From assembly GCA_029339195.1 (NCBI GenBank), contig JAPTJF010000354.1, positions 1 to 64,000 of the forward strand: a DNA stretch of 64,000 bases, in the 5' to 3' direction. The notes beneath the pieces were generated by a model. It worked only from the letters and a program-made list of their open reading frames with translations. It made no database searches and was not told the DNA's origin. The stretch comes from Micractinium sp. NFX-FRZ. Taxonomy: Eukaryota; Chlorophyta; Trebouxiophyceae; Chlorellales; Chlorellaceae. Made by a program: the position numbers and the translations under genes. This document shows positions 309-64,000 of the stretch, piece after piece; position 1 is the stretch's first letter, and every line of letters begins with the position of its first letter.

Positions 309-3300
309 ATGGGGGGCAGCCCGCCGGTGATCGACGCGCAGCAGCTCATGGCGCCTGGCAACACGGCGCCGCCGCCGCTGGAGGTAGCGGCGGCGATTGC
401 GGCGGCGGCCACCTCTGCTGGCTTCTTTCAGGTGTGAGGATGCACAGCTTGCACCCCCACGACTGTGGTGGCCTGCAGGATCACGCTGGTTGAGGCGTGG
501 AGTGCAGCATTGCAGCCGCCGCCCTGCTGGCTGCCGCTGCCGCCCAGCCAGGCGGACGACCACGCCTCGCGGGCCCGCGCTGGTACGCGTGCTCTGTGTG
601 CACACCCTTGCCACCCCTGATCCCCACCCACAACACTGCTGGCACCACATGTCTGCAGCTGATCAACCATGGGGCCGACCCTTCCCTTCTGGAGCGCATG
701 ACCGCTGCCATGCACGCTTTCTTCGATCTGGAGCTGGAAGAGAAGCTGCAGGTGACGACAGGCGGCAGGAGCAGGGTGCAGCCGGGTGGCTGGGCAGCGG
801 TGCCAGCAAGAGCCTGCTGCTGCGGTTGGGGGGTTACGGATGCCTCCTCGCCTGTCGCTGTGTCACCCCCGCTGCACTCGCCTTCCGAGCGGCCCGCTGC
901 GGGCCCCATACTTGCGCCCCGTCTGCCCGCCTGCGTCCACCTGCCGCCTGCTCACGCACACCGTCGCGCACCTTGCCCTGGCCCCGCCCTGCCTGCCGCC
1001 CCCGCTTGGCAGGTGCGGCGCACGGCAGACAACGCCATGGGGTATGCTCACGACGAGCTCACCAAGCAGATGCGGGACCTAAAAGAAGTGAGGCTGGTGT
1101 TTGCAGATGGATGGGTGCATGAGGCATGTGACAGTGTATGCACACTTCAATGTGTGTGTGTGCACGTGGCAGGGGCAGGGTGCTCCTGCTCTTGGTAGAT
1201 CCTCAGGCAGCCACCCCGCCGTCTCTCCTGGGCCGAAATTATCCCTCTAGGGCTGTCCCCACCCTCTGCACTGCAAAGTGTTTTAACTCCTGCTGAAACC
1301 CTACTGTACCCTGCTGCACTGCCAGGTGTTTGACTTCTGCCGGGTGCCCCACCCAGAGCTGCCTGAAGACCACCCCGCCAACCGCACAATCGACGGGTAC
1401 AACAAGTGGCCGGCTGGGCAGGTGTGTGTGAGTGCGTGAGCCACAGCAGCTGGCATGCGGGTGCGCGTGGCAGGTGGTCATGCTTGGGCTGCTGGCGTGG
1501 CAGGTGTGTGTCAGTGTGTGTGTGGTGGCGTGCAGTGGTGAGAGGGCCTGTCCCATTCACCCACCCCACCCCCAACCTGCCCCCCTCGAAGCCTCGCTCC
1601 ATGCTCCCCCCCCCCAGCCTGAGTTGCACGCACGCCGCCACGCATGGCTCTTACGCAGAGACGGGATAAAGTGCTGCTCCGTATCTGCCTGCTGGAGCCC
1701 TTCTGCCCGGGCCTCAATACACCCTCACTGCCCCTCCCTCCCCGCCCTGTCCCCCGTGTCTCCGCAGCCCGAGTTCCACGCTGCCATGCGGGCCTACTAT
1801 GCTGAAATGGAGCGCTGCTCGTTCCGCCTGCTGGAGGCCTTCTGCCTGGGCCTGGGCCTGCCCCCCTCGGCGCTGCACCACCTCTTCCAGGCGCGTGCCG
1901 TGGGAGGGTCTTGCTCCCGTGGGTACCCGTCTCTGCATTCTTGCTTACTCCTCTGAATGTATTTTCGATAATTATATGTGTCTGGGGCTGGGCCTGCCCC
2001 AGTCGGTGCTGCACCGCCTCTTCCAGGCGCGTGCCACGGGGTCCTGTTCATCACGGATGTGCGCCTCTGCATGCTGGTTTTTCTGCTCTCGAGCCATTGT
2101 GCCTGGGCCTGCCCCCCTCGGCGTCGCACCGCCACTTTCAGATGCGCCTCAAAACACCACGTGGCAGCTGCCGCTCCCTGGCTCCTGCCAGCTACAAGGC
2201 ACGCACTGGCAGGGGCAGCCCCCGACGCTGTGCGACCTGCTCCAAGTGTGATCCCCGTCAGCAGGCACCCGGGGGTCTTGTGGATGTGGTGTGGGTCGCT
2301 GTGGCGCTGCTCTAGCCCCCTGCCCCAGTTCGCCAGCCCGGTTAAAGCACCGCTGTCCTCTGTGCCCTGCTCCCCAGCCTGCAGGCACAGCTGCGTTGCA
2401 GCTGGGGCCTCCCGGTTGCCCTGCAGCACAGCCCCGCTGCATCGGAGCCTGCCCTCTGCTCGCCTCGCCGCACCCTCTTACTCACACCTGCCCGTGGCCT
2501 CCACCCTCCCTGCCTGCCTGCAGGGCCAGCACACCTCCTTCCTGCGGCTCAACTATTACCCGGTGCAAGCCGGGCAGGGTGGACAGGCTGCGGCGGCAGA
2601 GCAGGCAGAGCAGGCAGAGCAGGCGCAGCAGGCGGAGCAGCTAGGAGTGAACCACCACACCGGTGCGTGGGGGCAGGGGTGGGTCTCAAGCGGGGGTAGG
2701 TGGGTTTTGAGTGGGTCGGGCAGCGCTGCAGGCACAGGCGCAAGTAGAGGCAAGACCGGACCCCTATAAACCCGATAAACCGCGGGTAGGGGTTGGGTGG
2801 GGCAGGGGGTGAAGAGCATGGCAGCAGCGGCAGGGCATCTGGGAGAGGAGTCGCCACACTGGTGGGTGGGTAAGGGTCAGGCTGGGGTGGCAGGGCTTGG
2901 GGTGCAGCCGGGGTGGTGCGGGGCATGTGCTCCAGGCTGGGGCGCAGGGCAGGGCAGAGGAGAAGACGTGCTTCCCTCACCCCCAGTGGCGCCGCCCCTG
3001 TCCAGCCCTGGCATGTGTGCGGCATGCCCACACGCTCGTCCCACTCCTTGCCCGCGTTCAGATGCCGGCTTACTCCCCATCATGTAGTTCCAGATGGCAT
3101 GCCTGGCCCCAAATGCCAACAGTACTCGCCGCCCCTCCTCCGCCCCTCTTATTGGTACCACCCTGCCCCTGCCCCGCCTGCAGATGCCGGCTTCCTCACC
3201 ATCCTGGTCCACGATGAGGTGCCGGGCCAGTAGATGCTGAGCAACTCGCCACCTGTCCACCCCTCTCTGTTTTCCTGCCCCGCCTGCAGACGCCGGCTTC

Positions 3301-4797
3301 TTGACCATCCTGGTTCAGGACGAGGTGCCGGGCCTGCAGATGCTGGATTCTGAGGGGCGCTGGCAGCTGGTGCAGCCGATACCTGGGGCACTGACCATCA
3401 ACGTGGGGGATCAGGCGCAGGTGCGACTTTCTATGTGGCTGTCCAGGTTTTTTCGGGTGGTATTTAGGTCAGCTTTGGTTGCCGGTTGCGAGGTTGCTGG
3501 CAGCTGGTGGGGGCAGTACCCCAGGTACTGACCATCAACGTGCGGGACCAGGCGCAGGTGCGACCCTTGCACCTGCCTTGCAAAATTAGCATCAGCAAAT
3601 GAAAGGAACAAGGAGGCGGGCGCACGTGAGGGAGCAGACGCTGCCGGGACGGCATCCATACAAGCATGCGTTGGCAGGCTATGTGACAGTCAAATGCCAT
3701 CGAAACGCCAGTGCACCACCTGCGTGCGTCACCGCCCTCACTAAGTTGAACCTCCCGCTTGCAGGTGCTGTCGAACGACCGCTACAAGGCACCCCTGCAC
3801 CGCGTGCTGGCGTCGCGCGGCCGTCGCCGCTACTCCGCCCCTTTCTTCTTCAACCCGCGGCCCGATGCCGACATCTCGCCGTTGCCAGTGGTGGGTGGGC
3901 CGGGAGGGAGGGGCGGGAGGGGCCTGTGAAGGGCAGACAGCGACAGCTCGCTGCCTGGTCACACGCACAGGTGGCACCACTGGCGTCGCTAGTGGGTGCG
4001 TGGAGCAGCAGCGTGGGGCAGTTCTGGGTGCTGCTGCTCCCCTTCCCACTTCAACCGACCCTGCGGCCTGGCGCACCTGTCGCACACAGCTGCCTGCGGT
4101 AGGTGGGCGATGAGGGAGGGGTGGACCCGGCGGGAGGGGTGTGGGGTCCTGCACTGGAAAGGTGCAGCAGCAGCCACCCGCCCGCGCTCACGCCCACCTT
4201 GCGCCGCCTTCTTTCCTCCCCTCCCCTCACCCCCTGCCTCCCTCACAGCAGTTCATTGACGGCCAGCACCCGCCCGCCTACCGGCCCATCAACTGGGGGC
4301 AGTTCCGCAGCCGCCGGTTTGCAGGTGTGCTGGTGTTGATGAGCGGTGCCCTGCTTGTGCGCCCTGGCTGCACCCAGTGCGCCCACTGCCGCTGCCCCTG
4401 CTGCTTCTCTATGCAACGAACCCTGCATGCCCCAGATGCATCTGTACTCACGGCACAGGCGGAGCAGCAACTTCCTGCCTCCTGCACTCCCCCTCCCTCA
4501 TACTGCTGGGGCCGACGGGGGAGAGGCCGGGGTGTGCTATACACCTACTGCCCCTTCGTTCCCTGTCATACGTCCCGTGCCTGACCTGCCCGCTGTGCCT
4601 GCTGCGCCTGCTGCGCCTGCCCGCCTGCAGGCGACTACTCAGACCAGGGCGAGGAGGTGCAGATTTCTGACTATCGACTGGACCGCCAGCCAGCAGCAGC
4701 AGCAGCAGCAGAAGAGGCACCAGATGCAGCAGCAGCGGCAGCGGTGCATGGTGCAGCAGCAAAGCCAGCGGCGGTGGCAGAAAGCGTGGGCGCATAA
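309..4797 (+). CDS. 2-oxoglutarate/Fe(II)-dependent dioxygenase (isopenicillin N synthase-like), 10 exons
   Basis: Exons 309-431, 659-751, 1013-1087, 1326-1421, 1768-1899, 2524-2662, 3290-3420, 3765-3890, 4249-4324 and 4631-4797 join in frame to about 385 residues. The N-terminal DIOX_N region is recognisable (PVIDAQQL, then LINHGADPSLLERM). The double-stranded beta-helix core carries the iron ligands: HTD (split by the intron between exons 6 and 7, HHT|DAGFLTIL) and the distal His in APLHRV. The 2-oxoglutarate-binding RxS is RYS, followed by APFFFNP. The length is normal for this soluble family, which oxidises small metabolites; the substrate cannot be told. Exon 5 could end at 1890 with a GC donor instead of 1899. 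The C-terminus is Ala-rich low complexity. Nearly every intron contains damaged copies of a neighbouring exon, listed separately. Confidence 0.88.
1264..1300 (+). repeat. Exon echo of dioxygenase exon 4 start
   Basis: About 37 bases resemble the acceptor and first codons of exon 4 (1311-1347): both read CTGCACTGC, then GTGTTT, then ACTYCTGC. The echo has lost the AG acceptor (AAAG in place of CCAGG) and carries a TAA in the matching frame. Confidence 0.6.
1615..1715 (+). repeat. Exon echo of dioxygenase exon 5
   Basis: About 100 bases match the 5' two-thirds of exon 5 (1763-1855). CAGCCTGAGTTGCACG corresponds to CAGCCCGAGTTCCACG, and the later segment encoding the equivalent of LLEAFCLGL is recognisable. 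It has indels and an in-frame TAA, so it is a decayed pseudo-exon just upstream of the functional exon. Confidence 0.75.
1978..2150 (+). repeat. Two exon echoes of dioxygenase exon 5 end
   Basis: Around 1980-2040 and 2098-2150 are two successive copies of the exon 5 3' end and its donor region. The first still reads GLGLPQSVLHRLFQARA against real GLGLPPSALHHLFQARA. The second is more degraded. Neither keeps the GTGGGA donor seen at 1900. Confidence 0.75.
3060..3240 (+). repeat. Two exon echoes of dioxygenase exon 7 start
   Basis: Upstream of exon 7 (3290) are two tandem copies of its acceptor and first ~45 bases. The copy at 3180-3234 keeps a CTGCAG acceptor and reads GFLTILVHDEVPG before an in-frame TAG. 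The copy at 3060-3110 is older and more degenerate. The three acceptors are spaced about 110-120 bases apart. Confidence 0.85.
3484..3562 (+). repeat. Exon echo of dioxygenase exon 7 end
   Basis: Downstream of the exon 7 donor (3420) is a second copy of the exon end and donor: CTGGCAGCTGGT, a gap, ACTGACCATCAACGTG, then CAGGCGCAG|GTGCGAC. It matches 3360-3428 but has a frame-breaking indel. Confidence 0.85.
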
Positions 4798-5290: not shown

Positions 5291-8200
5291 ATGTCCAGCC
5301 ATTCTGGACGCAAGCGATCGGCTTCCAGCAGCCAGGGGCGGTCGGTGCGGCCCCGCAATGACGACCCAGACTACATCGCGGAGCAGCTGTCGTTGGAGGC
5401 GTGAGTGCATCCCCAGAGATCATTGTTGCAGCAGCGTCTGGGCCGCCGTGGTGCTTGGGGCGGGCTGTCAGCTGCTGCCTGCGCTCACGAAGCCCCCACC
5501 GCCTCTCCTGCTGCAGCAAGGTCCAGCCCAAGGTGCGGCGCAACGGACGCGGAGGATGGAACAAGCAGGAGGTGCGTGCCGGGGGCCGCGGGCAGCGCGA
5601 ATTGTCAGGCAGCTGTCGACGGCGGCAGGCGCTGCGCCGCCACCGCGGCGACGACGTCAGGCAGCCTGCCTGTCAAGGAGCCTTGCGATCCGAATTCCCC
5701 TCTTTCTCGCTGCCCGCGCTGCAGGACGATCTGCTGCGCCGCATGGTGGCCCAGTACGGGGCTAAGAACTGGAAGAAGATAGGTGCGGGGGCGGGTGGCA
5801 GCTCCGGGCAGTGCGGGGCGGGCGCCGTCGTGCGTGGAGGCATCACTGCCCCACCTTGGGAGTGGGCCGTAGGGCTGAGGGAATGAGGAGCTGCCATACA
5901 ATCGATGAAACCTCACAACTGTGTGGCTGCGCGTTGGGGTGGTTGCTCTGGGGGCTCGTGTGTTTATGGCATGAAGAGAGTTATGCACAACATCGACAGC
6001 TCGCGGACACTGCACGTGGGGCACATGCCGACAGCTGTCGCCTCCCATCCCACGGCCACTGACTGCCCCTCTCCCCAGGGGCGCCTCCCGCATCTCACAC
6101 CACCTGTGGCGGACGGACACTGTGGCAACTTGTCGCATGCATGCTGCTGTGTACTCCGCCAGATGCCCCCGACACGCCCTGCCTTCCTGTGCTAGCATGC
6201 AGCACCTGCAACGCCGGAGAAGGCTCCGACGCCTCCTCCCACATGCCCAACAACTTGCTATGAACCCGCCCCTCCCGCATGTCTGTCCCACTCCCGTCTG
6301 AATGCGCTGCAGCCGAGCACTTTGCCGACCGCAGCGACGTGCAGTGCCTGCACCGCTGGCAGAAGGTGCTGAACCCAGAGGTGCACAAGGGGCCGTGGAC
6401 GCCAGAGGAGGATGACGCAATCATGCGGTGAGGAGCTGGGGGGCACAGCTGCGCAGGCCGGCAGCGCCGCTGAACCTTGGCAGATCTCCCTGAGAGCCGC
6501 CTGGCCGCTTCAAGTCCAGTGGCGTGACAGCCAGCCAGCATGCTTCCATGCTTGTCCTTGCTCTCTTGTGGCTGTGCATGCTGGGGCATGCTGGGGCATA
6601 GCATGAGGAATGCTCATGTCAGGGCTCTACTGCATTGCTCGCTTGGTGCTCTCTGCAGGCTGGTGGGGCAGCACGGGCCCCAGAAGTGGACAATGATTGC
6701 GGAGCACCTGCCGGGGCGCATCGGCAAGCAGTGCCGCGAGCGGTGAGCGGGGGGTGCATGGGCGGCTGATGCCCTGCTTGATTCGACTGCTGTGCTTTCG
6801 AGGGCTGAGGGTAGGCTGCTATACGGCAGTGTAACGGTGCACTGATGAGGGGGTGCACAACACGCCTGCCCAGTCTGCCGCGCACCCCGGCACAGCCGCT
6901 TGAAGCCCTCTTCCTCACCGTGCCACCTCTCCCTCCCCTCCCCTCACATCACCTCACCTCACCCCCACCACCCCACACCCTCCCCTCAGGTGGCACAACC
7001 ATCTGAACCCCAACATCAAGCGGGGGCAGTGGTCCCGGCAGGAGGACGAGGTCATTGTCCGCTTCCACCGCAAGTTCGGCAACCAGGTGTGTGGGCATGG
7101 GAACCACCCAAGGGGTTTGAATGCGCACCCAGGGAGGGTGCGCTGCAATCTGAGCTGCATCCGCCGCGAGGGAGGCGTGCGGGCAGCTGCAGAGCCCGCC
7201 TGCCCATGCTGGCAGCCCTCCCTGACCATTGCTGGCCGCTCACCAGCTGGCCCGCCCATCCCACCGCCGCCGCCGCTGCAGTGGGCGCGCATGGCGATGC
7301 ACCTCAAGGGGCGCACCGACAACGCCATCAAGAACCACTGGAATAGCACGCTGCGGCGCAAGGTGGGCTGGGGGTTGCCAGGGGCAGCAGCTGTTTATCT
7401 CTCCCAGGTGGCTTGTTTCCAATGAGTGGCAGGTGCAACGGGCAGTGCGTCTCTCTCTGCAGTGGCCCTCGCGGTGGGCTGTTCCCCTGTCCGCCGCTGC
7501 CTGCCTGCCTCCTACGCGTGCCGCCACCTGTCGCATAGCTGCTGGACCATATGCTTTCGCTCTCCTCCGGCTGCTGCATGCGGGACGCGGCTAGCTTGCT
7601 GTGCTGCCTCCTCTGCCTGCCTTCCCACCTGCCCAGCTGCACCTGCTGGGCCCGCTGTGCTGGCTGGACTGACCCCCTCTGGCCCCTGCCTGGCACTGCT
7701 GTGCTGCGCTGGTGCAGCGAGCAAGGCGACTATCCTGTGCTGCGCTGCCCATTGACTTGAGCTCCCACCTTCAGTATCCTGCCTGCCTACCTCCCCACCA
7801 CAACATCATCATCACTGGCCGCTGCGTCTTCCCCTGTTGCTGCTGTGCCCGCGCAGGTGGAGCAGGGCGAGTTTGTGGGGCTGCCAGACTGGAAGGATGA
7901 TGACTCGGACGCGGGTGAGCGGCGTGAGGGGCCAGTGTGGATGGGATGCACGGTTGTGGGGAGCACCTTTTCAGGATTTTTGTGGTCACCAAAGAGTGGT
8001 GGAGATGGAACAGGTGTCCCTGCCCTGCGCAGCCAGCAACTGACTTGACTGACTTCCCCCCCGAACCTCATGCAGACTGCGGCTATGACGCCAGCGGCAG
8101 CAGCTTCATTGGCAGCCGGAGCGCCCTCCAAAACGAATGCATGCCCTCCTGCCCTGCATGTTCCATAACTGGCTCCCTCCCTCCCTCCCCTTGCTTTCAT

Positions 8201-11200
8201 ACAGAGTATGACTATGACGGCAGCAGCTACATGGACAGCCAGGAGCCCTCCCCCCACTCCATGCCCTCCTCCCCCGGCAGCCGCCAGCGCTCGGCCAGCC
8301 CATTCTGCAGCGGCGGCAGCGGGCCCCCAGCGGGCGCGTCGACCGACGGCAGCAGGTGGGGCAAGGCAGGGCGCTCGCTGGGCGGCCTGCTGCCTGGGGG
8401 ACCCCGCTGTTTCGCCAGCTCTGTGCCACGGCGTGCCTTGCGCCCAAGCTGCTGCAACACCTGGCGCTCCTTTCACTCGCCAGGCACCGTTGCTGATGTC
8501 CGCCAGCGTGCCCTGCCTGCCTGCCTGCCTCCTGCTTGCAGGCGCCTGCGGCCCAGCCACTCTCCCTCTGCCAGCCCAGCGCCGGTGAAGGACTATGCTC
8601 TGGCCCAGGTGAGCAAGCTGGGTGGAGCTGCAGGAAGCTGCGACGACTGGGAACCAGTATAAACAAGGCCTGAGCAGGGTGGCACACTGCGCTAGGGCAT
8701 TATTGCCCATTGCTTGCTGATGCTTACCTGCTGCTGTGCCTCTGCCACGCTGCTGCCTCACCCGCCATGTGCATGCCCTGCCCACCCGCCTCCGTGCTGC
8801 CCCGCAGGCGCCCACCGACGGCGCGACGCGGCGGTCTCGGCGGGTTGCGCAGCGTGCCTCCGGCGCCGGCGGCAGCGCCTCGCCTTCCGCGCCCGGGCTG
8901 GACCAAGAAGGGCGTGACCCAGCTGACCAAGAGGATGCGCTGCTGCCCATCCCTCAGCCACGCAAGACGCGGCAGGAGCTGCGGGTAGCGGCGGCAGCGG
9001 CGGCGGCGGCAGCGGCGGAGGCAGCAGCAGCAGCGGCGGAGGCAGCAGCGGCAGCGGTGGAGGAGGAGGAGAGAGCCAGAGCCCTTCAGCTGCTCCTGCT
9101 GCCAGAGGAGCTGCCACTGTCAGCACCCCAGCAGCCGGAGGAGCGGCAGGAGGAGGAGCAAGCTGCCGAGGAGCCAGCCAGGTCTGCGCAGCAGCATTAT
9201 GCCGCATTTGAGCAGCAGGCTGCGGCGGCAGCAGAGGCCGCCAAAGCGGCAGTGCTGGCGGCCGCTGCCGGCCCCTTTGCGGACGCAACTGCTTCAGGAG
9301 TGATGGCGGCCCCACCCCGGCCCAGCCGGCTGTCTATGGCTCTCATGGGACCGGCAGAAATGGATGCTTTCTTCCTCGCCTCCGACTCCCAGCCCGCAGC
9401 AGTGACCACGGCAACGCCTGCCGCGCCCACAGCAGCACAGCTGCCAGCAGCAGCAGCAGCAGCAGCAGCTCGCACTGCGGCCCCGCCGCTGGCGCAGCCT
9501 GACCCGACGCCGGCACGAGAGCCGCCGCCCGTGTTCGCCGCACCGCTGCCCCGGCGCGCCTCCCTGGCGCAGCTGCCCCAGCTGCAGCAGCTGCAGCAGC
9601 AGGACGAGCGGCGGCTGTCCACTGCCGTCAGCATCGGGCCCTCCATCTCGGCAGCACCAGATGCCATCCTGCCTGGCGGCGGTTCCACCGCTGCGCCAGA
9701 GTGCCCCGGCACCGCCGCCACGGCAGCCACCGCGCCCCCGGCAGCAGCAGCAGCGGCGGCGTCTGGGGCGGCCGGGCCCCCGGGCACGGCACCGCCTCCC
9801 AGCACGATCCATGCAGACACGTGGCGGAGCCTGGTTGAGCTGGGGGTGGCCAGCCCACCGTCAGGTATGCCCAAGGGGCCCCTCATATGTGCCTGTACTG
9901 CCTTGCTGGTTGTAGTGCCTTGCGATCTGCGAGCAGTACTGCCCTGCGCATCTGGCCAGTACCGTCTCGTAATTTAGCCTGGCCTGCACTGGCACCATGC
10001 TGGCACTGCGCAAGGAGGCATGAACCATGAATGTCCATGTACCGCACTTGAAATCGCTTCCTTCTTCACTTGTGTTCCCCTTCGCTGCAGGGCACACCAC
10101 TGTTGTGGGCACCCCGCTGCACATGGGCTCCCAGCCCAGCGGCACCGTGGCCACCCCCGCCATGCTCCTCTTTGGCACGGTGCTCAAGGGCCAGCACCGC
10201 AGCGGCGGCAGCGTGATGCGCACGGGCAGCGGGCTGCGACGGTAAGTGGAGCGCCTGCCTGAAGGGAAGGGGGTGACATGCTGCCAGTGAGCTGCCCTGT
10301 CCTTTGTATACGGGCGCCCCGCATATGCAGGCCTGCTGGCTTTTGCACACAAGCTTGAAGCTGCTGTGCTTGCACCCTGCATGTGGGTGCATGCTCAGCC
10401 AGCTGTTCCGCAGTAGCTGCTCAGCATGAGCACTCACCTGCCTGCTCGCCCCCTCCACACCCCTCTGGCTTGCTGCAGCGGCGGCGTGCGGCGGCAGCCG
10501 GAGCTGTCGCTCCTGCAGCCAGTGGCGGCCGGGCACAGCGCGCTCCACGCTGTGCCTGCTGAGTCAGCGCCAGCTCACACTCCAAGCATGACGGGGGCAA
10601 GCAACGGCGCCGCCGCCGCTGCTGCTGCAGCGCCCGGCAGCGTGGTCGGAGGGAGCCGGCTGGGCAAGGGCGCGACATCTGCCACTCGCACATTTGCCGT
10701 GACGCCGGCGCCTTGCGCTGCGTCTGCTGCGCCACCGGCAGCAGAAGGCGAGCAGGCACACGAGGGAGGTACTGCCCCGGTGGCGGCGGCGCCCGCGGAT
10801 GGTGCCAGCCCTCTGCCAGCTGGCGGCGCCAGGGGCGGCGAGGCGGGCGACCTGCAGCGCACCGACTCGGGCAACGGCCTGCCCATGCTCCTGCTCTCCC
10901 CTCCCATCAGCATGCCCTCCAGCAGCCTGCTGCCGCTGCCGCCGCTCAGCGTCACCAGCGGCGGCGCCTGCGCCGCGCGCACGGGCGGCGCCCCGGGCAC
11001 GGCCGGCCGGGCGGCAGCAACCGAGGAGGAAGCCGAGCGTCTGCTGCAGCAGCACTTCCGGCCCAGCAGCAGCAAGCTCACAGAAATGTTCAAGCCTTTG
11101 GAAGAGCAGCGGCAGGGGGCAGCACCCAGCAGCGGCGGCGCGTCGCCCAGCGCCGCCGCCGGCGCGTGCCAGCAGCAGCAGGCAGCGCCGCAGCGGTCGC

Positions 11201-12074: not shown

Positions 12075-12949
12075 GCTCACCATTTGCCCTGCCTGGACCA
12101 GTAGGGCCAGGCCACTTACACTCACCTACGTTAAAATTGACACAGGGTCAAATCTGCAACGCATGCCGCCCCATCTATCATCCCTCGACATGCCACCCCC
12201 CTAATCTCCCATCCTCACACTGCCGCTCCAATCTGCTGCCTCCCTGTGACATTACCTAGCTGCAATCTACGCTCCCATCTATGCTCCCAACCCCCGTTCC
12301 CAGAACTGACCATGACAAGTTGACATGTTGACAAACTGACGCCCCCTGTGCACTTACTGACCTTACCGGCCTGGGTGGTGCTGCCTGCCTCGGTGGTGCA
12401 ATGCCACCCCACCCCACCTTGCCCGCTTGGGCGGTGTTCATTCTTTGACTTGTGAGAACGCCTCGCCCCTTGAGAGTCTGCTTCGGCTTGCTCATGCAGC
12501 GCCGCCGCCCACTGCTGTGCACCCAACAGTGCACGCTACTTCACCCTGGCACTCCCGCCAATTGAAACCCTCCCCAAACTGACTGACTGTAACGGACTGG
12601 AGACACCAATTGCAGTGGCAATGTAGTTTCGAAGACGGTTGTGCGGAACACGTGCAGTTTCCGTGGGAGGTGCATGGCGCAGCGGCGGCTCCGCTCTAAT
12701 GTGGGCGGTGCCCGAGTGTGCTGCCATAGGCCCTGCCCCGTAGCTGGCGGCAGCATCGGTCTGAATCTTAGTACGTTTGCATGCAACTCCAATGTGGTAT
12801 TGGTATTTGGAGGGAGCCACAGTTTTTGTCTACTCAACCTGAAGGCAGGCCAGCGGGCACAGCGGGGCGACAAGCGGCGGCGCCGTGGCAGGTGGCAGCG
12901 GCAGGTGGCGCAGGAGATTGTGAGGTCTCCAGCTGCATCTCAGTCCTTC
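12075..12949. other. Intergenic region, MYB3R to F-box/LRR copy A
   Basis: About 875 bases without a supportable exon. It is less GC-rich in the middle (12120-12620), consistent with a 3' UTR and promoter. A block at 12840-12890 resembles 14990-15040 upstream of the next paralog, so promoter sequence was duplicated with the gene. Confidence 0.6.
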
Positions 12950-14855: not shown

Positions 14856-15126
14856 GCACTACTTGTGCCGCCCTGCCATGCGCTGAACATGGAGGTGGCA
14901 TGTGAACTTGGCTGTTGCTTGTTTGAGGTCGTGGCATTGCTAGAATGTGGAAGTGTGCGAAATGAATCCTAAAGGGGCCAATCACGAAGTCGGTGCAACA
15001 GGCCAGCGGGCGCAGCGGGGCGGCCAGGCAGGCGCCGCCTGGCACCGCCCTCAACAGTGCCGGGCGGTCAATTCGACATTGCCAAAGTCTTGAGATCGCT
15101 TGCTAGCCAGGAACTGCCCTGCAGCC

Positions 15127-44254: not shown

Positions 44255-44289
<35 letters not shown>

Positions 44290-47500: not shown

Positions 47501-47564
<64 letters not shown>

Positions 47565-49408: not shown

Positions 49409-52400
49409 TTAGCAGGTTGCCACGCATTGCGCGCCCACGTGCATTGCCTGCATCGCCGTCAGCGCCGGCCTGAGGTCGGGCGCAGCGCAGTCCAGGGGCG
49501 TCTTGCCCTCGTCGTTGCGCGCTGCCAGGCTGGCACCCTTGGAGGCCAGCAGCAGGGCCACTGCTTGGTGCTGCTTTTCGCAGGCCCACAGCAGGGGCGT
49601 GGACCCGCTGCTGCTCCTGGCATCTATGGAGGCCCCCTTCTGGAGGAGCAGGGCGGCGGCGCCGGCGGCGCCGCCATGCGCTGCGTGGTACAGAGGGGTG
49701 CAGCGGTCGCAGTCCCCTGCTTCCAAGTCAGCGCCCGCCTCCAGCAGCACCGCCACCAAGGCGGTGTGGCCGCCTTGGGCGGCAAAGTGCAGGGGCGTGC
49801 TGCCTTTGGCGGTGACTGCACCCACCGGCGCGCCTGCCGCCACCAGCGCCTGCGCCACCTCGACGTGGCCCTTGATCGCCGCCCAGTGCAGGGGGGTGCA
49901 CTTGTTGCTGTCGGCGGCAGAGGCAGGCGCGCCGGCCCGCAGCAGCGCCTGCACCTGAACTGCAGCACAAGAGTGAGGGGGAGGGGGAAGAGGTCTGTCA
50001 GTGCTGCAACTGGAGGCCAAACCTAGCCTGGCAGCATTGACAATGACCCGATGGGCACAGCTGGCCGCTGGTGGATGCCTTGCCTGGTAGCACGCACCCC
50101 TGTGTGCACGCACCAGGCAGGCGCGCCTGGAAGCCCACAGCATCCCAGCACCCCCGCCAGCGCCCCACCTGTGTTGCCCTCCACCGCCGCCGCCAGCAAC
50201 GCAGCGCCCTGGTCAGCTGGCGCCGCCGCGGGTGGAGAAGGGGGTGGGGCGGTCTGCCTGCGCGAGTCACAGGGCTGGGAGGTGCAGAGTCAGCAGATGG
50301 CAAACAACAACAGCGTCGGTATGCTGATGCATGCGACCTTTTCAACTGCTGCTGACCCGTGCCAGCTGGGCTGCCAACGGAAACAGCACGAGCGCGGCAT
50401 CATGCTTTTCCAACACATTCACCAATCACCGAAACCCTGCCCTGCACAGAGTGGCAGACGCCCAGCGACTGCCAGCACGCTGGCATGCAGGCATGCCCCA
50501 ATGGGCACTTACCCCTGCGGCTGCACCGCCAGCAGCGTCTGCTTGAGGTCGGGTGTGGCGCAGTCCAGGGGCGTCTTGCCCTCGCTGTTGCGCGCTGCCA
50601 GGCTGGCACCCTTGGAGGCCAGCAGCAGGGCCACTGCTTGGTGCTGCTTCTTGCAGGCCCACAGCAGGGGCGTGGACCCGCTGATGCTCCTGGCGTCCAC
50701 GGAGGCCCCCTTCTGGAGGAGCACGGCGGCGGCGCCCGCCTGCCCAAATTGCGCCGCATGGTTTAGAGGGGTGCAGAGGCCTAGATCCCGGGCATCCACG
50801 TCAGCGCCCGCCTCCAGCAGCAGAGCCACCAGGGCGGTGCTGACGCCTTGTGAGGCAAAGTGCAGGGGCGTGCGGCCATCGGTGTTGGCCGCACCCACCG
50901 ATGCGCCCGCCGCCAGCAGCGCCCGCGCCACGCCAATGTGGCCCTTTGATGCCGCAATGTGCAGGGGGGTAGACTTGTCACAGTCGGTGGCAGACACGGA
51001 TGCGCCCTTCTGGATGAGCAGCGCTGCTGGGCCCGCATGGTCAAACTGCGCCGCGTGGTTCAGCGGCGTCTGAAGGAAGCCGGCAGGGTGGCAGGCATCC
51101 ACGTCAGCGCCCGCCTCCAGCAGCAGAGCCATCAGGACGGTGTTGCCGGCTTGGGTTGCATAGTGGAGGGGCGTGCTGCCTTTGGCGGTGGCTGCACCCA
51201 CCGGCGCGCCTGCCGCCAGCAGCGCCCGCGCCGCCTCGACGTGGCCCTTGATCGCCGCCCAGTGCAGGGCGGTCCACTTGTTGCTGTCGGCGGCAGAGGC
51301 AGGCGCGCCGGCGCGCAGCAGCGCCTGCACCTCGGCTGCAGCACAAGAGAGAGGGTGAGGGGGAGGTGGAGAGGTGGACGGGTGTCAGTGCCAGATGCAG
51401 CTGCCGGTGCCAGCGGAGGACCCACCTGGCACAGCTGCTGGTTGCTGCGGCCCGATAGCACTTGGAAGGCCAATCAGCAGCCAATCAGGGCGCCCGATGG
51501 TCACAGGTGGCATCCGTTGGATGGCCAGACTACGCACATGCTGGCCATGCATGCACACAGCTGCACCGCACTGGCTGCCTTCAACAGCCGCAAATCAAAT
51601 CACCAGGCAGCAACCCAGCCCCCCGCCAGCAGCCCACCTGTGTTGCCCTGTGTTGCCGCCGCCAGCAGCGCGGCACCCTTGTCGACAGGCGCCGCCGCGG
51701 GTGGTGGAGGGGGTGGGGCTGATGCCGGGTGCGCAGCCTGAACGTGAGGCCTGCATCAATCACAGAGAAGGGGGGCAAAGGGGTTGGCAGGTGCGGCACA
51801 ACAAACTGGGTGCGCATGGGGCTGCATGCCGGCCACCCATCCCGGAGGCTGCTGAACGTGCCAGCTTGCCGGCAGACACACAGGCTTCATGCATGCGGTG
51901 CCATGCTTTCCACCAGCCACCCAGGAACCAGCACCCAGCTATGCTACGAGCAGCCACGGCTCCAAGCGGCCCTCAGCAGCCGCTCAAGCAGGCGGGCTCC
52001 GGCGACTCACCGCTGCGCAGGCGCAGGCGGGCCCTGCAGCGCCTGCCGCACTTCGGCAGTGGCCAGGTCCAGTGGCGTCTGCCCCGCCTTGGTGCGAGCA
52101 CCCAGCGAGGCGCCAGCCTGCACCAGCGCCTGGGCAGCCTCCACCATGCCGGCGGCCGCTGCCAGGTGCAGCGCCGTGGCTCCAGAGGTGGTGACGGCGT
52201 GGAGGGAGGCCCCGTAGGCCAGCAGAGCGCGCACGACGTCGGCGCGCCCCCGCCGCGCCGCCCAGTGCAGCGGCCGGGCGTCTTCCTTGTCCCGTGCGTC
52301 CAGCTTGGCGCCCCGCCGCGCCAGCACGTCCACCACTGCCGTGTGCCCGTTGGCGGCGGCGTAGTGCAGGGGGCGGGCGTTGGCGCTGCACTTCCCGTTG

Positions 52401-56893: not shown

Positions 56894-59692
56894 CTACCGC
56901 GCCACCAGACCCGCCTCCTTGTCCCACTGGTCTGCGCTCTTCACGTTGTCAATGATCTGCACGGGTGATAAGGTGGGGGTTCGCGAAAGTCTTATCTGAG
57001 CTTGAGGTGAAAAGGCTTCGCAGAGAAGCTTTGAGAGCACGCTCCTCACTCCACGTCATCAATAAGCTGCAAGGGTGCGAGCAAGCCGCAGTAGCATGCA
57101 GAGGGAGCAACGCCCCCACCACACGCGCACCACCCGTGGCTTTCGGCCAGCCGCTGCCCAGCGGGGCGCGGCAACGCACCTGCTTCTCTGGCGTCACCAC
57201 CCCATCGATGACGCCATAGGCCAGGGCATCTGCCGGCTGCATGTACAGGGGCCGCTGCATGTCCTGCGGGACGGAAGGGCGCAGCATGGGCGGGAGTGCC
57301 CAGGGCAAGGGGGTCAGCCGAGCGGCGGGAGGGGTGGGCAGGGAATGAGGGGCGGGCAGGGGAGTGTGGACGGAGCAGGTGGGACTGGGCAGGTTGAATC
57401 ACCACCGCTGCCTGCCTGCCAGCACGGCAGGCGGCCCAGCCTGGCACCCTCTCACAGGCAGCCCCATCCACCACTGCCCGTCTCTTCGCCTCCTGATCAG
57501 CACGCACTTCCCTGCTTTCCCGAGTCCCGCAACCCTGCCAGCTTCCGGGGGGATGCGGGGCACATCCTGCTGCTTCCAGGGGGTCCCAGCAAACCAAGAG
57601 AGACACAAACCCCAACATCCACACATCCTCCCCAGCATGGGTGCCAAGATGCGCTGTGGGTGGCCCCCGCCAACTCTACTTGAGCGCCCCACCTGTGCTG
57701 CACTAGGGGCACAGCAGGCCCCGCCCTCACCGCCCGCTCCCCTGCCCTAGGGGTACAGAAGCGCACTGCCCACACCGCCCGCTCCCCTGCCCCAGGGGTA
57801 CAGCAGCGTCCTGCCCCCCACAAGACCCACCCCAGCTGCCCCCCTCCTCACCTTGTCCAGCTTCTCCGGCGAGTGCCCCGTGGTGCGGCTCAGGATGTTG
57901 AGCATGTTCTGCTTCTGCGCCAGCACCTCCCGCCACTTGATCTGGATCTCAATCGCCTGCCGCTGCCCCGTGGGCGGCACGCGCGGCTGGTGCAGCATGG
58001 CCGTCGCGTGCTCAAGCATGAACCGCTTGCCCTTCTCCCCCGCGGACAGAAGCATGCACGACTGGCCAATTGCCACGCCCACGCCCACGGTGTGCACCTG
58101 CGTGCAGCAGCCAGAGGGCGGGCAGGCAGTGGGAGGCCGGGCGGGGGGGAGGGCTCACCATGCGGCACAGCCGATGCACGTGTGTGCTGGCACACATGCT
58201 CACTTGTGTCCACACACGGCTGCAGGCGCGTGCCCCTGTGCGCACCCCTCAAACAAAAACACAAGCTTTCCAGCCAGTTGGCACATGCGCACGCATGCAT
58301 GGCAGCAGCCAACACACACGCCACGCTCTCTCAGCCAGCGCGGCCCACCTCGTTCTTGATGAAGCACATGGTGTCGTAAATGGCGGTGCCCTCCGTCTCA
58401 AATCCAACCGTCTCGCCGTCGGCGCGCGTGGTGCCTGCCGGGGGCGGGGTTGAGGCAGGGCGGGCGGCGGGGTGAGGCCCAGCGAGCAACAGGCAGGGCG
58501 GTGGGCGGTCAGCCGTGGCCCCACCCCTCTGCGATCCCGCTGCCTGCTGCGGGACACGCAAAAGAACACACGTATCGAGTTGCCTTTGGACAGCAGGGCA
58601 GCACCCACCGGTGGAGTTGATGTAGAGGTAGATGGGCTTCACCCGGTCCTTGCTCTGCAGGTACAGCATCTCCGCGATGATCAGCTCCGTCACGGCAGGC
58701 ACCAGCTGCGGGGGGTTGGCACAGGGAGGGAAGGAGGGCAAGATGTTGACGCCAACCCCGGCATGATGCGGGTACCTCAGCATCTCAGCGGTGGACCTGC
58801 TGCATCGCCACGGGCAGCAGGGGTGCCCTGCCCCCTGGCCGTCGTGTAACAATGTTCCATGCGCAGGAAGAGCAAAGTGGGATGCAATGGTTGCATCACA
58901 TCCACGTTGTTGCCATCCTCTCCCACTGGCAACAAGCAGGCGGCTGAGCGCTTGCAAGGCCAGGGCGCGGTCCATTGGCGCCCAACAAGCTAGCAGCCAC
59001 GGGCGCATAGCAAGCAACGTCAGGGTGACGAGGCTCGAGTGGCGCGCCGGCATGCCAAGGTAGACGTTAGACAACAGAGACACAGCAACAAACCAAACGG
59101 GACCCTAGATAGCCCCCCCAGGCTGGGCAGCAGCGCACCGGCATGCCGAGGTAGACGATGCGCGAGTCGAGCAGCAGGGAGGGCAGGTCCGGGGGCGGGG
59201 TGCGCGGCTTGTGGTCATCAAACGCGGAGGCTGCTGCTGCGGGGGCGCCGCCGCGTGCCTGCACGTCCAGCTGTGCGGTGGGAGGCGTCCAGAGCTGCTG
59301 GAAGCGGTGGAGGTCGCCCACGTCGGCAGACGCGGGCGTGCCTGGAAGGGGGGAGAGGGAAGTGAGGCGTGGATTGGGCGGCGGTTGATGAGGCGGGTGG
59401 CAACTGCGGATAGCACATGCAGAGCCGCATGGTTGGAGCTTGCAGGGTGGCAATTGGCGGAAATGAGGGCGGCTGCAGCGGCAACGGCAAGCTGGCGGCG
59501 GCCCTGCCGCCGCCGCCGCTCGCTGCCGCTCCGCCACCCTCACGGCGCGCCTGCCCACCAGCATCTCCCCTCCTGCTCACCGTGCACCGCCGCTACAATC
59601 TGCTGCCGCTGCTGCCTGCCTGCCCGAGCGCTGCCATGTCGCCGGGCCAAGGCAGGCTGCAGGCTGGCGGCCCGTGCGGCGCTCAGCTGCAT
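56894..59692 (-). CDS. Plastid ClpR subunit (non-proteolytic Clp core protein), 7 exons
   Basis: Exons 59692-59581, 59341-59139, 58705-58609, 58434-58349, 58097-57852, 57263-57180 and 56956-56894 give 296 residues. The first ~37 residues (MQLSAARAASLQPALARRHG...) look like a chloroplast transit peptide. The Clp fold follows: IVYLGMP, then LIIAEMLYLQSKDRVKPIYL, YINSTG, and the ClpR-specific insert TTRADGETVGFETEG. In VGVAIGQSCMLLSAGEKGKR the position of the catalytic Ser of ClpP is Gly by my alignment (G177), while His (MLHQPRV) and Asp (KLDKDMQRP) remain, as in ClpR proteins. It would sit in the plastid ClpPR ring as an inactive subunit. I cannot choose between R1, R3 and R4. The last exon (IIDNVKSADQWDKEAGLVAR) matches the ClpR tail; a decoy exon lies before it. 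Confidence 0.9.
57046..57066 (-). repeat. Decoy terminal exon of ClpR (exon echo)
   Basis: A CTTGCAG acceptor is followed by LIDDVE and a TGA in the correct phase for exon 6. It copies the start of the real last exon, which has a GTGCAG acceptor and IIDNVK at 56956. If used, it would remove the conserved 14-residue tail. Confidence 0.8.
57681..57815. repeat. Intronic tandem repeat, ~45-50-base unit, three copies
   Basis: Copies of AGGGG(T/C)ACAG followed by GCCC, CACCGCCCGCTCCCCTGCCC in ClpR intron 5. Non-coding. Confidence 0.85.
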
Positions 59693-60101: not shown

Positions 60102-62099
60102 ATGTCGCGGGTGGACGCAGTGCTCGCCAAGTTCAAGCAGGGGCAGAAGGCGGCCCTGAAGACGCAGGCGGAGGCGCGGCAGGAGCGAGAGGACAAGTTG
60201 GCCAAGGCAGCGCAGCAGGGCGGCGCAGGTGCGGGGCGGGGCGGCGGGGCAGACGGGCGGGCGGGTGGAGCAGACTGGGCAAGATGCTGAAGGCAGCGCA
60301 CCGCTACTCCAGCCCGGTGCGGCAGCGCCTGAAACCACTGCCGATTTGGTGGTGCACCCTGCTGCAGGCAAGCGAGCAGCGGGCAAGGCAGCAGGCGGGC
60401 GCGGGCGCGTCGGCAAGGCCGGCTCCGGCGAGCCCACCGCCTCGGTTGCCTCGGTCGCCAGCGCTGCCACGCTCGACTGGAAGCAGCGCAGCCGCACAGC
60501 GCAGCAGGCGGTGCCGCTGGGCGTGAAGATCAAAGCGGTGGTGGACTTCCTGCGCGCCAGCGGAGACCCGCAGCGCCCTGCAGCCATCGCAGCAGCCACC
60601 GGCTTGTGAGTTGCACGCCGCCGCCGTGCCACCTGAACTGATTAGCTGCTCGAGCGCTGCTGCTGCTGCCTCCGCCGCCGCTGCCACTGGTGCACCTCCT
60701 CATGCGCCACAGCCATGCACAATAATGCACCAGATGGTGTTTATGTCACTCACCAAGCCCCTTGCCGCCCCTCACCGGTGCCTTTGCGCCTGCCTGCGAC
60801 CCCGCCCGCCCTCCCGCCGCAGCAACCCGCAGGCGGATGCGCAGCTGCACTCTGCCCTGGCCGCCAACAACAAAGTGGATGCACAGCCGGATGGGCTGTA
60901 CGCCTACCGCCCAGGTGGGTGCACACATGGTGTATGCCGATGCTGCGGGAGTGTGATGCCGTCGGAGTCTGACACTGCAGTAGCGAAGCTCTGCGGAGCG
61001 CTGCCTGCGGGATGGTTTGCCTGGGGGCTTGACTGGGCTAGGCAGGTTGAGTGGGTGCTGGCTGGAGCACCCTTGCGTCCCGTACAGCAACGCACCCAGT
61101 TCCCCCCCCTCCTGTTGATGAGAACAGTTGTTTCTGTCTCCCTCCCCTCCCTTCCTCCGCAGCGGTGGTCAGTGGGTGCAGCTAGCATGAGCTGCTCAAG
61201 CATTGCCACATCTCTTTCATGAACCATTTTCTGGCATGTCTTCCCCCCCTGCAGAGGTGGCCAATGTGCGCAGCAAGCACGAGGTGCTGGAGTACCTGCG
61301 GCGGCGGGAGCGGCAGGTGGGCGTCGGATGGGTGCCCTTGACCGCTTCTAACCGCCCTCAAGCACGAGTGATTGAAATGGCGGTGAAGCACGCATACCTC
61401 TGCTCGCCCGCTTGCCGACCTGTGTGGCATTTCGGTGCCCGGTTTTGGCCGCCACCCACCTGGCCACATGGCAGCCACCTCCGCCGCCCTTTCCTCTGCT
61501 GTCCCCTGCTGTCCCCTGCCGCCTACCCCAACCCGACCGCACTCTGGCACGCGCCCCGCCTTGCCTGCAGGGCGAGGGGTATGCTGCGCTGGGGGAGCTG
61601 CAGGATGCATACCCCGGGGTGCGGCAGGACTTGGAGGTGCGAAGGAGCAGGGGCTCTGCCTCTTCTGGCCTGCTCCTGTGCTGGCGTGCCTGCTGCTTCG
61701 CCTTTGCATCTTGGGTACCACGCACATCCAGCTGGGTGTGGAGGTGGGCGCAGCCAGCTCCCGTGCTGGCTTGCATATCGCCTCGCCCTGTGCTGCTGCC
61801 TCCGCCTGCCCACAGCATGCGGGCGGCCAAGGGGAGCACCGGCTGCTACCCCTGGCCCCGCCCTGCCCTGCTGCCTGCCGCTGCCTGGCGTAACCCTGCC
61901 ATGGTTCTTCCCATGCTGCTCCTGCACCCCGCAGGCTCTCAAGAAGGAGGGGCTGCTGCTGAGCCTGCCTGCGGGGGATGCGCAGCGCAAGGAGGTGTTT
62001 TACCCAGTGGACATGCGCCTGCAGCTCAGAGTGGATGCAGACCTGCAGGTGGGGGCGGGCGGCTGGTGCACGCTGGCTTTTGGTTGGGCATGGAGGGGC

Positions 62100-62130
<31 letters not shown>

Positions 62131-62878
62131 ATGTTGCAGGTGGTGCGCGTGCGGGGCGGCGGCTCAGAGTGGATGCAGACCTGCAGGTGGGGGCGGGCGG
62201 CTGTGAGCGGAGTGTTGTATTGCCTTCTGTTTGGGCATGGAGGTGGCGGGCGCCAACGTTGCAGGTGGCATCCCCGGGGCGTGCCGAAGGTGTTGCTGTC
62301 CCAAGCTGCCTCTCATCGCCAGCTGCTGCCTGCCCCTGGGCTGATGCCCTGCGGTGTGCAGGAAGCTGGGGCTGCCCCCGGCTGCCCCCGGCTGCCTCTC
62401 ATGTCTGCCCCTGCTGGCGGTTGTGCCTCTGCCCCCCCGGTGTGTGCAGGAGCTGTGGCTGTCCCTGGGTGACCAGCTGCCGGAGGAGGAGGAGGAGATG
62501 GCGGCGGAGCTGCAGAAAATAGGTGGGTGGGCGGGCGGGGCACCTGGCACAGGCGGGGGCAGGAGGGCGCCCACCTGGCCAGTTTTGTTTTCGTGGGGGT
62601 GTCAACAGGGGAGGCGGTAGAAAGAGGTGGGGCTGCAGAGGAGCGCGAGGTGCGGGAGGAGATGTGCACACACATGCCCCTGCTCAGGCACCAAACCCAT
62701 TTCCTGCTTCCCCTGTTCGGCAGGCCTCAAGCCCGCCCCGCGGCAGGTGGTCGAGAAGCGTGAGGCGCGCGAGAAGAAGCGCAAGGCGCGCAAGGTGCGG
62801 CGGCTGACCAAGGTGACCAACGTGCACCTGCAGCACCTGCTGGAGGGGGATGCGCCCGTCAACATCGAGACGGCGTGA
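60102..62878 (+). CDS. TFIIE-beta: Transcription initiation factor TFIIE beta subunit, 8 exons
   Basis: Exons 60102-60228, 60326-60605, 60823-60914, 61255-61316, 61571-61636, 61935-62048, 62450-62522 and 62724-62878 give 322 residues. The N-terminus is basic (MSRVDAVLAKFKQGQKAALK). Two winged-helix domains follow: VKIKAVVDFLRASGDPQRPA, then NPQADAQLHSAL, DAQPDGLYAYRP; and VANVRSKHEVLEYLRRRERQ, GYAALGELQDAYPGVRQDLE, ALKKEGLLLSL. DADLQELWLSLGDQLPEEEE matches the human FQKLWRSVxVDSMDEE region. The C-terminus is highly basic (KREAREKKRKARKVRRLTK, then NVHLQHLLEGD), like RRFKTHNEHLAGVL in human TFIIE-beta. It acts with TFIIE-alpha in RNA polymerase II promoter opening and TFIIH recruitment. The length is close to the usual ~290. 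Confidence 0.93.
62101..62128. repeat. (GT)13-14 microsatellite
   Basis: Pure GT dinucleotides in TFIIE-beta intron 6, ending directly in GCAG. It sits between the two copies of the duplicated exon 6 end. Confidence 0.95.
62160..62255 (+). repeat. Exon echo of TFIIE-beta exon 6 end
   Basis: A near-perfect copy of the last ~20 coding bases of exon 6, its donor and intron start (CTCAGAGTGGATGCAGACC, then CTGCAG|GTGGGGGCGGGCGGC) at 62162-62200 repeats 62026-62064. Homology resumes at TTTGGGCATGGAGG. The duplication is ~135 bases and looks young. Confidence 0.92.
62354..62390 (+). repeat. Exon echo of TFIIE-beta exon 7 start
   Basis: TGTGCAGGAAGCTGGGGCTG at about 62355 copies the exon 7 acceptor and first codons TGTGCAGGAGCTGTGGCTG at 62443. 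A one-base change in spacing breaks the frame. Confidence 0.65.
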
Positions 62879-63552
62879 GGGACTCCAGCGGGCACATGCT
62901 GTCCTATGAAAGTGAATGAATGTACTGCTGTACTTTGTCAAGTGCTCGCCCCTTGTACTCTCCTATTCGCTCACACTGTTTGCGTCGTACTCCCTCTGCT
63001 ACCTCCTGCCTTTCCTACCGCTGCCCGCCTTCTGCCCTGCTGACTTTTGCCGCTTCCGCGGGCGCCGCCCGCCGTCCCCTCTGCCCCCTGCCTCCCTTGG
63101 CTGTGCCGCTTGCAATAAGCAAGCCTGTTCCTTTCCAGACTGAAAGTTAAAGAACAAGTGTTACAGTACAGGGGTGGATACAGGATGAGGAAAGGATTGG
63201 GTCCACGGTGGGAACGTGGGGAGACAAATTTGCACACAGAGTACAGTAGGCAGAGGCAGTGCCAAGGGTAGGGTTACATGGTGACAGCCCCGCACACAGT
63301 CCAACAAAGCACACAGAGATACACACAGCCAGGGGCAGCACTCTCAGGGACAGGCAATGCACAGGGCGCGCTGTGCAGAAGCAGCAAGAGGGGTGCACGA
63401 GTCGGCTGCTCGGCCAGCTGTGTGGCTGGCAGGGCGGGGCACAGAGGAGCATGTGTGCGCCAAGCAGGGGCTCCTCAGTACTGCATGGTTTCCCTCTGCT
63501 GCAGGCCGCCGCACTCGATGCCTGTCTCACAAGCGCCGGCCTCAGAAGAGGC
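62879..63552. other. Convergent intergenic region
   Basis: About 670 bases between the ends of TFIIE-beta (plus) and ClpP (minus). Presumed 3' UTRs. It is T/C-rich at 62930-63010. No exon. Confidence 0.6.
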
Positions 63553-64000
63553 TCAGAAGAGCTTGTTTGCGCCCGCCTCGTTGAGCAGCTGCGCCTCGGT
63601 CTCTGCCGGCGGCCGCGTGTCGATCACCTCGTCCACCAGCCCAAAGTCCTTGGCCTCGGGGGCAGACATGAAGTAGTCGCGCTCCAGCACCTCCTCTGCA
63701 AAATCAGAGTTGTGACATTATAAAGGAGAGGAAGGAATGAGGGGAGCTGGTTGGGAGGAAATCATGTAGTGCAGCCCAAACCCGTCAACTGCAGGGGGGG
63801 CCGACATGAAGTAGCCGCGCTCCAGCACCTCTTCTGCAGGTGTCAAAGTTATAGAAAGATAGGTGTAAAGCAGGTGTGAAGGCGGTGAGGGGTGGGCATA
63901 GACAGGGTCGGAAAGTAAAGTAGTTGTGCTCCAGCGCCTCGGCTGTATTGACTAAGCAGAAGGGGGGAGGAAAGAAGGAGGGGAGCTGGCGAGGTGGGGG
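63553..64000 (-). CDS. ClpP-family protease subunit, C-terminal exon only (cut by window edge)
   Basis: The only exon I can place is 63695-63553, reading EEVLERDYFMSAPEAKDFGL, then VDEVI, ending GANKLF and TGA. RDYFMSAPEAKDFGLVDEVI is the standard C-terminal helix and loop of ClpP. The upstream exons with Ser and His are outside the window, so catalytic status is unknown. It is probably a plastid or mitochondrial ClpP. The visible intron (63696-64000) contains two echoes of this exon's start. It lies 3.9 kb from the ClpR gene in the same orientation, with TFIIE-beta between. Confidence 0.85.
63797..63955 (-). repeat. Two exon echoes of the ClpP last exon start
   Basis: At 63840-63797 the minus strand reads CTGCAG, then EEVLERGYFMSAP with the CTGCAG acceptor intact. 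At about 63950-63906 an older copy reads EALEHNYFTF. The real exon reads EEVLERDYFMSAP at 63695. Spacing is about 140 and 110 bases; divergence increases away from the real exon. Confidence 0.9.

Follow-up and report, generated by a model that had tools for sequence, protein, structure and literature searches.

In a 64-kb window of contig C354 (JAPTJF010000354.1, positions 1 to 64,000) of the green alga Micractinium sp. NFX-FRZ, introns carry worn copies of the adjacent exon edge, which we call echoes. Each probably began as the second copy in a short tandem duplication (up to ~140 bp), which took place long ago along the genes, and has since decayed; we read the echoes as the fossil record of an already known mutation type. 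The repeats themselves, their direct orientation, their distances, and the non-coding decay of the intronic copies are observed here. Together with the controls and a simulation that reproduces the main anatomy, they lend good support to the proposal, made in a first-pass annotation of the window, that echoes originate by tandem duplication across splice sites. Our sample comprised 304 kb in 25 sequences, namely the whole window and 24 additional 10-kb stretches from the same genome (66 Mb, 838 contigs). GC content is 66%, and several of the pair counts below refer to a subset, the first 264 kb.

We compared the sample with itself and collected direct and inverted repeat pairs lying 60–300 bp apart at E ≤ 0.01. 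There were 93 direct pairs and a single inverted pair. Start-to-start distances (d) are strongly concentrated: 64 of the 93 direct pairs lie at 80–140 bp, none were found at 30–60 bp, and only 38 occupy the entire range of 1000–3000 bp, so that the density at 80–140 bp is about 50 times that of the longer range (64 pairs per 60 bp versus 38 per 2000 bp). With exon-exon pairs excluded, the interquartile range of d is 96–134 bp (73 pairs). A single dinucleotide-preserving shuffle of the first 264 kb produced no pairs. According to the labels of a self-trained gene finder, the 93 pairs comprise 52 exon-intron, 20 exon-exon, 13 intron-intron, and 8 with little exon. The exon-exon pairs are coding repeats or echoes that the finder labelled as exons, and, because it also fuses adjacent genes, the exon-intron counts are lower bounds. 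Placement relative to exons is near random, with observed versus expected counts of 43 and 34.8 for exon-intron, 19 and 15.1 for exon-exon, 12 and 17.9 for intron-intron, and 8 and 6.9 for little-exon pairs. At least two pairs occur in 13 of 75 clusters, as expected of arrays of at least three units; coding or low-complexity repeats make up a few of these clusters. Some pairs are longer than their own period and are therefore plain tandem arrays, as in the window at 3051–3345 and in stretches L008 (1237–1514) and L011 (4206–4485).

Repeat pairs are present in 19 of the 25 sequences; the window has 3.75 per 10 kb, and the remaining stretches have 2.9. A self-comparison of the window at E ≤ 1e-3 found 20 direct repeats with separations under 1500 bp. 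The echoes are thus confirmed in substance as real and as general to the genome rather than peculiar to the window. The suggestion that an unusually active local process is at work is not supported by these counts, and the decay described below fits old events better than current activity.

Next, we aligned introns with their own flanking exon edges. At 27 bits or more, 55 of 566 predicted introns (59 of 1085 edge/intron pairs) matched their own exon edge, compared with 2.0 pairs expected from mismatched exons of other loci; at 33 bits or more there were 30 introns (32 pairs) against 0.13 expected. Block-shuffled and reverse-complemented introns gave zero to two matching introns at all thresholds. 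The control proposed in the first-pass annotation thus shows own-exon matches far in excess of mismatched and shuffled ones, and the excess is seen on both the donor side and the acceptor side. Smith-Waterman alignment gave p ≤ 0.05 in 139 of 954 edge/intron pairs, with 54 in an antisense control. The estimated null share was 0.84 for own edges versus 0.97 for the control, and therefore about one in seven to eight exon-edge/intron pairs may carry an echo. Contrary to the first-pass annotation, the splice site is not part of every copy: of the 43 exon-intron pairs in the first 264 kb, 28 contain a predicted junction and 15 lack one. The finder arrived at the consensus CAG/GTGNG for donors and TGCAG/G for acceptors, and the parts of these that were not preset arose during its training.

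The intronic copies decay as non-coding DNA would. Differences between exon and echo at codon positions 1, 2, and 3 amount to 0.115, 0.129, and 0.189, a pattern in which the echo appears to change at every codon position and the exon to contribute silent changes. Among 31 indels, 30 are not multiples of three. The distance modulo three leaves remainders of 0, 1, and 2 in 18, 21, and 13 cases, and an open frame runs through 17 of 52 echoes versus 36% for random intron. Because indels break the frame, distances are random with respect to three, and frames are open at chance level, most echoes look like debris and not like alternative exons; a role as a source of alternative exons, also raised in the first-pass annotation, finds no support in these figures. 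Gap openings per bp are 0.041 where both copies are intron and 0.019 where one copy is exon (16 pairs), as would be expected if two lineages, not one, were free to change in the intron-intron parts.

These features suggest a simple history. A tandem duplication crossing one splice junction would be tolerated as long as splicing kept to the outer of the two splice sites, because the inner copy then leaves with the intron; the outer site is presumably the one used. Afterwards, the exon copy would be held by purifying selection while the intronic copy of the exon drifts alone, and in the intron part both copies would drift. The exon part and a few constrained splice-signal bases would consequently remain recognisable longest. 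By analogy with the systems compared at the end, the mutational step is most likely the fill-in repair of staggered breaks, that is, of nearby nicks on opposite strands.

We simulated this history by duplicating a unit of 78–142 bp in tandem within real gene contexts and applying the identical detection afterwards. Both intron copies and the echo were free to change neutrally, while splice signals and exons (except for silent changes at half rate) were held. Neutral decay of 0.20–0.35 changes per site per copy yielded short matches ending just beyond the splice site. The fraction of junction-crossing cores of at least 85% identity that end within 10 bp past the junction was 11/14 in the simulation at decay 0.25 and 21/22 at 0.30, compared with 12/13 in the real data. 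The median ratio of length to distance was 0.54 and 0.40 at these two levels and 0.46 for the real pairs (overlapping pairs merged), most of which cover part of the unit. We had considered copies that stop exactly at the splice site as the mark of a new copying mechanism, and dropped this since the simulation yields the same edge as survivorship: the match seems to end there because exon and echo diverge at one rate and intron and intron at twice that rate.

Several results weigh against old tandem duplication, or against the simple version of it simulated here. The gene models, and with them the exon and intron labels, are predictions of the self-trained finder. The comparison is confined to one genome, and 16 of 70 clusters, being exon-exon, were excluded from the comparisons with the simulation. 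Unit coverage reaches at least 80% in only 6 of 45 exon-intron clusters (13%). Homology beyond the cores is weak: on the intron side the mean z is 0.7 at acceptors and 1.4 at donors, and on the exon side it is 0.5–0.6. In 16 pairs with at least 15 bp of each kind, divergence is 0.166 in exon and 0.207 in intron, below the expected two-fold ratio, although detection truncates the higher value. The real fraction of cores below 85% identity that end within 10 bp is 8/22, compared with 49/163, 53/122, and 34/48 in simulations at decay 0.20, 0.25, and 0.30. No single level of decay fits everything: the 45:9 proportion of exon-intron and intron-intron clusters is matched at about 0.20, the core length at 0.25–0.30, and the share of cores at least 90% identical (0.22) at 0.35 or more. 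Ages spread over 0.15–0.5 give 42% full-length cores, also excessive relative to the 13% found. In nine of the 70 clusters, a core at least 36 bp long and at least 91% identical covers no more than 61% of the distance, compared with 12 of 858 in the simulation, which is too many for uniform decay. With large deletions added, the simulation produces no more than 9 such partial cores in 162, and in that case it misfits elsewhere. Finally, there were no intergenic pairs versus 7.3 expected under random placement, a test of low power, because a pair that lacks an exon copy is seldom detected at such decay (simulated intron-intron detection is 0.30 at decay 0.20 and 0.05 at 0.25).

An alternative to tandem duplication is that 20–60 bp of exon end and splice signal were copied directly into the intron by template switching or conversion, with no tandem unit. 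We consider this unlikely. It would account for the fact that 14 of 15 junction-crossing cores of at least 85% identity stop 4–10 bp beyond the junction (the TFIIE-beta core, at 17 bp, is classed as exon-exon, its echo having been called an exon, and lies outside this count), for exon-side flanks without further homology (median p 0.59, 64 flanks), and for the nine short, near-identical clusters. However, simulated old tandem duplications give the edge effect unaided, cores below 85% identity have 22 junction edges, of which 13 extend 25–122 bp into the intron, and faint homology over the remainder of the period is found for ClpP and dioxygenase and, by eye, for TFIIE-beta. Templated insertion is expected to yield inverted copies too, and a single inverted pair was found. 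A continuing duplication at constant rate, with its young copies collapsed in a short-read assembly, has about the same low probability. An assembly of 838 contigs for 66 Mb is compatible with collapsing of near-identical tandem copies, and collapse could hide the very youngest class. It would presumably conceal that class alone, however, and ages uniform over 0–0.5 predict coverage of 80% or more of the unit for 76% of exon-intron cores (58–72% with large deletions), far from the observed coverage. Because of this misfit, most duplication events look old; in the simulations, the best fit comes from old ages within a narrow span, and the duplication rate appears to have fallen with time.

Functional echoes, serving as alternative or mutually exclusive exons or as conserved decoy splice sites, seem very improbable from their sequences. 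Some echoes do keep both splice sites and are called exons by the finder (dioxygenase 3496–3564 and JMJ21 39083–39136), but the frame-breaking indels, the distances, the chance-level open frames, and a third-position excess of just ~1.5-fold argue against it, these tests concerning coding and not decoy use. It is equally improbable that the duplications created the introns, each being a duplicated piece of exon as in the AGGT model of intron gain (Rogers 1989 and Hellsten 2011, as cited in PMC4974935). In that paper, a duplication across an intron-exon border of a potato RdRp gene is described as having created a new intron, a case that by analogy makes it possible for an echo to become a new intron. 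Here, the start of the intron resembles the start of the downstream exon with p ≤ 0.05 in 42 of 495 introns (14 at p ≤ 0.01), a modest excess, but the end of the upstream exon resembles the end of its own intron in 22 of 495, where 25 are expected, and both intron ends do so together in 8 versus 5 expected. Moreover, echoes lie within introns that have their splice sites elsewhere. The AGGT model mentioned in the first-pass annotation thus fails this test, and the duplications mostly seem to have lengthened existing introns. Lastly, we give almost no weight to a mobile intron family (introner) or to chance similarity in GC-rich DNA. The GC content and 94 matches at E ≤ 1e-3 between introns of different stretches (569 introns) could point that way. 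However, the best 15 of the 94 are 22–84 bp long and on both strands, there are 9 short matches among 72 spacers, and a genome-wide search (which skips very common words) found that the TFIIE-beta (62021–62300) and ClpP (63640–64000) stretches each match only themselves in the 66 Mb. Because intron-intron matches are short and on both strands and these two stretches match nothing else, the sequences speak against an introner family, and the near-zero shuffled, inverted, and mismatched controls argue against chance.

In the simulation of old tandem duplication at decay 0.28, detection power is 0.004 for units of 30–50 bp, 0.037 for 50–70 bp, 0.104 for 70–90 bp, 0.121 for 90–120 bp, 0.179 for 120–150 bp, 0.267 for 150–200 bp, and 0.388 for 200–300 bp. 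Pair counts per 20 bp are 19–24 at 80–140 bp and 6 or fewer beyond. The ceiling near 140 bp is real, because counts drop past it while detection power rises. We also considered a sharp lower limit at 75 bp and rejected it as mostly an effect of the poor power at 30–70 bp.

The nine over-similar clusters suggest that some copies were later homogenised in patches by short, conversion-like tracts. Three of them have distances of 170, 199, and 214 bp, outside the simulated 78–142 bp. In the arrays at 6656–6926 of L011 and 5140–5380 of L007, the outer units (1 and 3) are 95% and 97% alike, respectively, and the middle unit is less like either neighbour (78–89%). In ClpP, the intron flank of the first unit recurs in the third and its exon core in the second. 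Short conversion-like tracts would leave such patterns, but another round of duplication might produce them as well. More speculatively, and with rather little confidence, a past burst of 80–140 bp duplications may have given a large share of the intron DNA, with exon and echo swapping short tracts ever since. The implied number of events is ~110–415 among 569 introns (54 non-exon-exon clusters divided by a simulated detection of 0.48–0.13 at decay 0.20–0.30). If this were true, the selected exon would repeatedly rewrite the useless copy beside it, and introns would be archives of old exon sequence, partly refreshed by conversion.

Of the eight window genes in which the first-pass annotation had reported echoes, seven carry pairs at E ≤ 0.01. 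The Cys-rich gene (20726–24837) has none, and its exon edges gave p ≤ 0.05 in 2 of 20 tests, with about one expected. The gene names are those of the first-pass annotation; Pfam agrees with the expected domain class for only six submitted proteins or parts (2OG-Fe(II) oxygenase, Myb, Snf7, Clp protease, JmjC, and TFA2 winged helix). In the dioxygenase gene (+ strand; DIOX_N and 2OG-FeII_Oxy on the protein), the exon at 1768–1890 of the gene model is the source of three echoes. The upstream one (1670–1714) copies part of the exon, with 86.7% identity over 45 bp to 1811–1853 (d = 141), and fainter similarity continues to the acceptor of the echo. The first downstream echo (1979–2035) holds the exon end and 9 bp of intron (89.5% over 57 bp to 1843–1899, d = 136). 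The second (2098–2141) is 86.4% identical over 44 bp to 1847–1890 (d = 251) and 79.5% identical to the first (d = 115). The array at 3051–3345 (72% over 191 bp, d = 122) has three units, which from their sequence can be read as two echoes with acceptors followed by the real exon. Just downstream, repeat comparison identifies an exon end with its donor (3359–3427) as the source of an echo at 3496–3564 (84% over 69 bp, d = 137).

The MYB3R pair (+ strand, 8095–8274) joins 8095–8154 and 8218–8274 with 76.7% identity over 60 bp (d = 123, E 2e-4), downstream of the MYB domain (5530–7354). In VPS20 (- strand; Snf7 by Pfam), an exon part at 18250–18286, found by repeat comparison, has an intronic echo at 18347–18383 (81% over 37 bp, d = 97, E 2e-3). 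JMJ21 (- strand) contains three groups. At 38773–38947, an echo (38773–38857) pairs with an exon end and intron (38867–38947) at 75% over 88 bp (d = 94). A real exon edge with its acceptor (38981–39034, where SLQWYLEVYP begins at 39021) has echoes at 39083–39136 (87% over 54 bp, d = 102) and 39191–39253 (78–79% over 63 bp, d = 217). An exon end with its donor site (42081–42123, by repeat comparison) is echoed at 41967–42010 (86.4% over 44 bp, d = 114). Repeat comparison likewise places the exon end and donor of ClpR (- strand) at 59133–59157, with an echo at 59042–59066 (92% over 25 bp, d = 91, E 6e-4). The TFIIE-beta source (+ strand, 62021–62065; TFA2_Winged_2 on the protein) spans the exon end and the first 17 bp of intron, and its echo at 62159–62203 is near identical (97.8% over 45 bp, d = 138). 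Finally, the start of the last ClpP exon with its acceptor (- strand, 63658–63700, by repeat comparison) has a first echo at 63796–63838 (93% over 43 bp, d = 138) and a second, forming the third unit, at 63916–63989. By eye, the latter has an exon-like core at ~63916–63948, and its intron flank at 63964–63989 is 88% identical over 26 bp to 63725–63750 (d = 239).

Other features were noted along the way. The window has interstitial telomere-like repeats at 13638–13729, GGGGTTTTT/GGGGTTT and then CCCTAAACCC-type units, and a perfect (GCA)20 run at 47502–47561. Two segments ~2.1 kb apart within 12846–15648 are 73% identical over 292 bp and look by eye like F-box/LRR coding DNA. The region at 49448–51719 appears by eye to be ankyrin-like coding DNA with internal repeats 78–84% alike at 297, 1073, and 1370 bp; judged from its sequence, it is a coding repeat array and not an echo. 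An Rfam scan of the window at gathering scores and a tRNA scan found nothing. Predicted introns starting with GC make up ~8–10% in the 304-kb sample and are either real GC-AG introns or prediction errors. In four stretches (L016, L017, L020, and L021), GCG accounts for 0.10–0.19 of alanine codons versus at least 0.27 elsewhere; together they hold one repeat pair in 40 kb, and their genes are perhaps strongly expressed. Because of these stretches we considered an assembly of two mixed organisms and dropped the idea, as exon edges reach p ≤ 0.05 in 18 of 153 tests in these four and in 121 of 801 in the others.

Exon edges, then, can act as mutation fossils: because the exon copy is fixed by selection, the drifting copy tells how large a duplication was, where it lay, and roughly how old it is. 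There is also a practical warning for annotation, as this finder called several echoes exons and other finders may do so too. Among the literature matches listed, no report described exon-edge echoes in algal introns. Several known systems can be compared. In rice, tandem duplications are enriched among mutations of 50–200 bp, their share drops beyond 125 bp and is 5% by 200 bp, and they are ascribed to the repair of adjacent nicks, or patch-mediated break repair (PMC7971508, citing Vaughn and Bennetzen 2014). As in rice, the algal copies are short, direct, tandem, and not transposons, and they fall off at a similar size (beyond ~140 bp here versus 125–200 bp there). The rice events are recent differences between varieties, whereas those of the alga are old remnants, viewed through their decay and lying for the most part at exon edges. 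The likeness of the ceilings is suggestive, no more; a rice-like ceiling would suggest a repair route common to green plants. Small tandem duplications also arise in mouse and human cells, where CST and Pol alpha-primase fill in breaks with 3' overhangs (PMC8355091). There too, the filling of complementary overhangs gives direct tandem copies, with insertions described in the introduction as less than 100 bp. That system was demonstrated in mammalian cells, and its enzymes are for the alga no more than candidates. The duplicated segment of potato RdRp spans an intron-exon border like those described here, but the algal duplications mostly seem to extend existing introns. Similarly, Daphnia neointrons have direct repeats at the intron/exon ends that are ascribed to staggered breaks (PMC4202315). 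Those repeats are 4–12 bp long and mark new introns, in contrast to the algal matches of 20–190 bp in introns that, for the most part, are not shown to be new.

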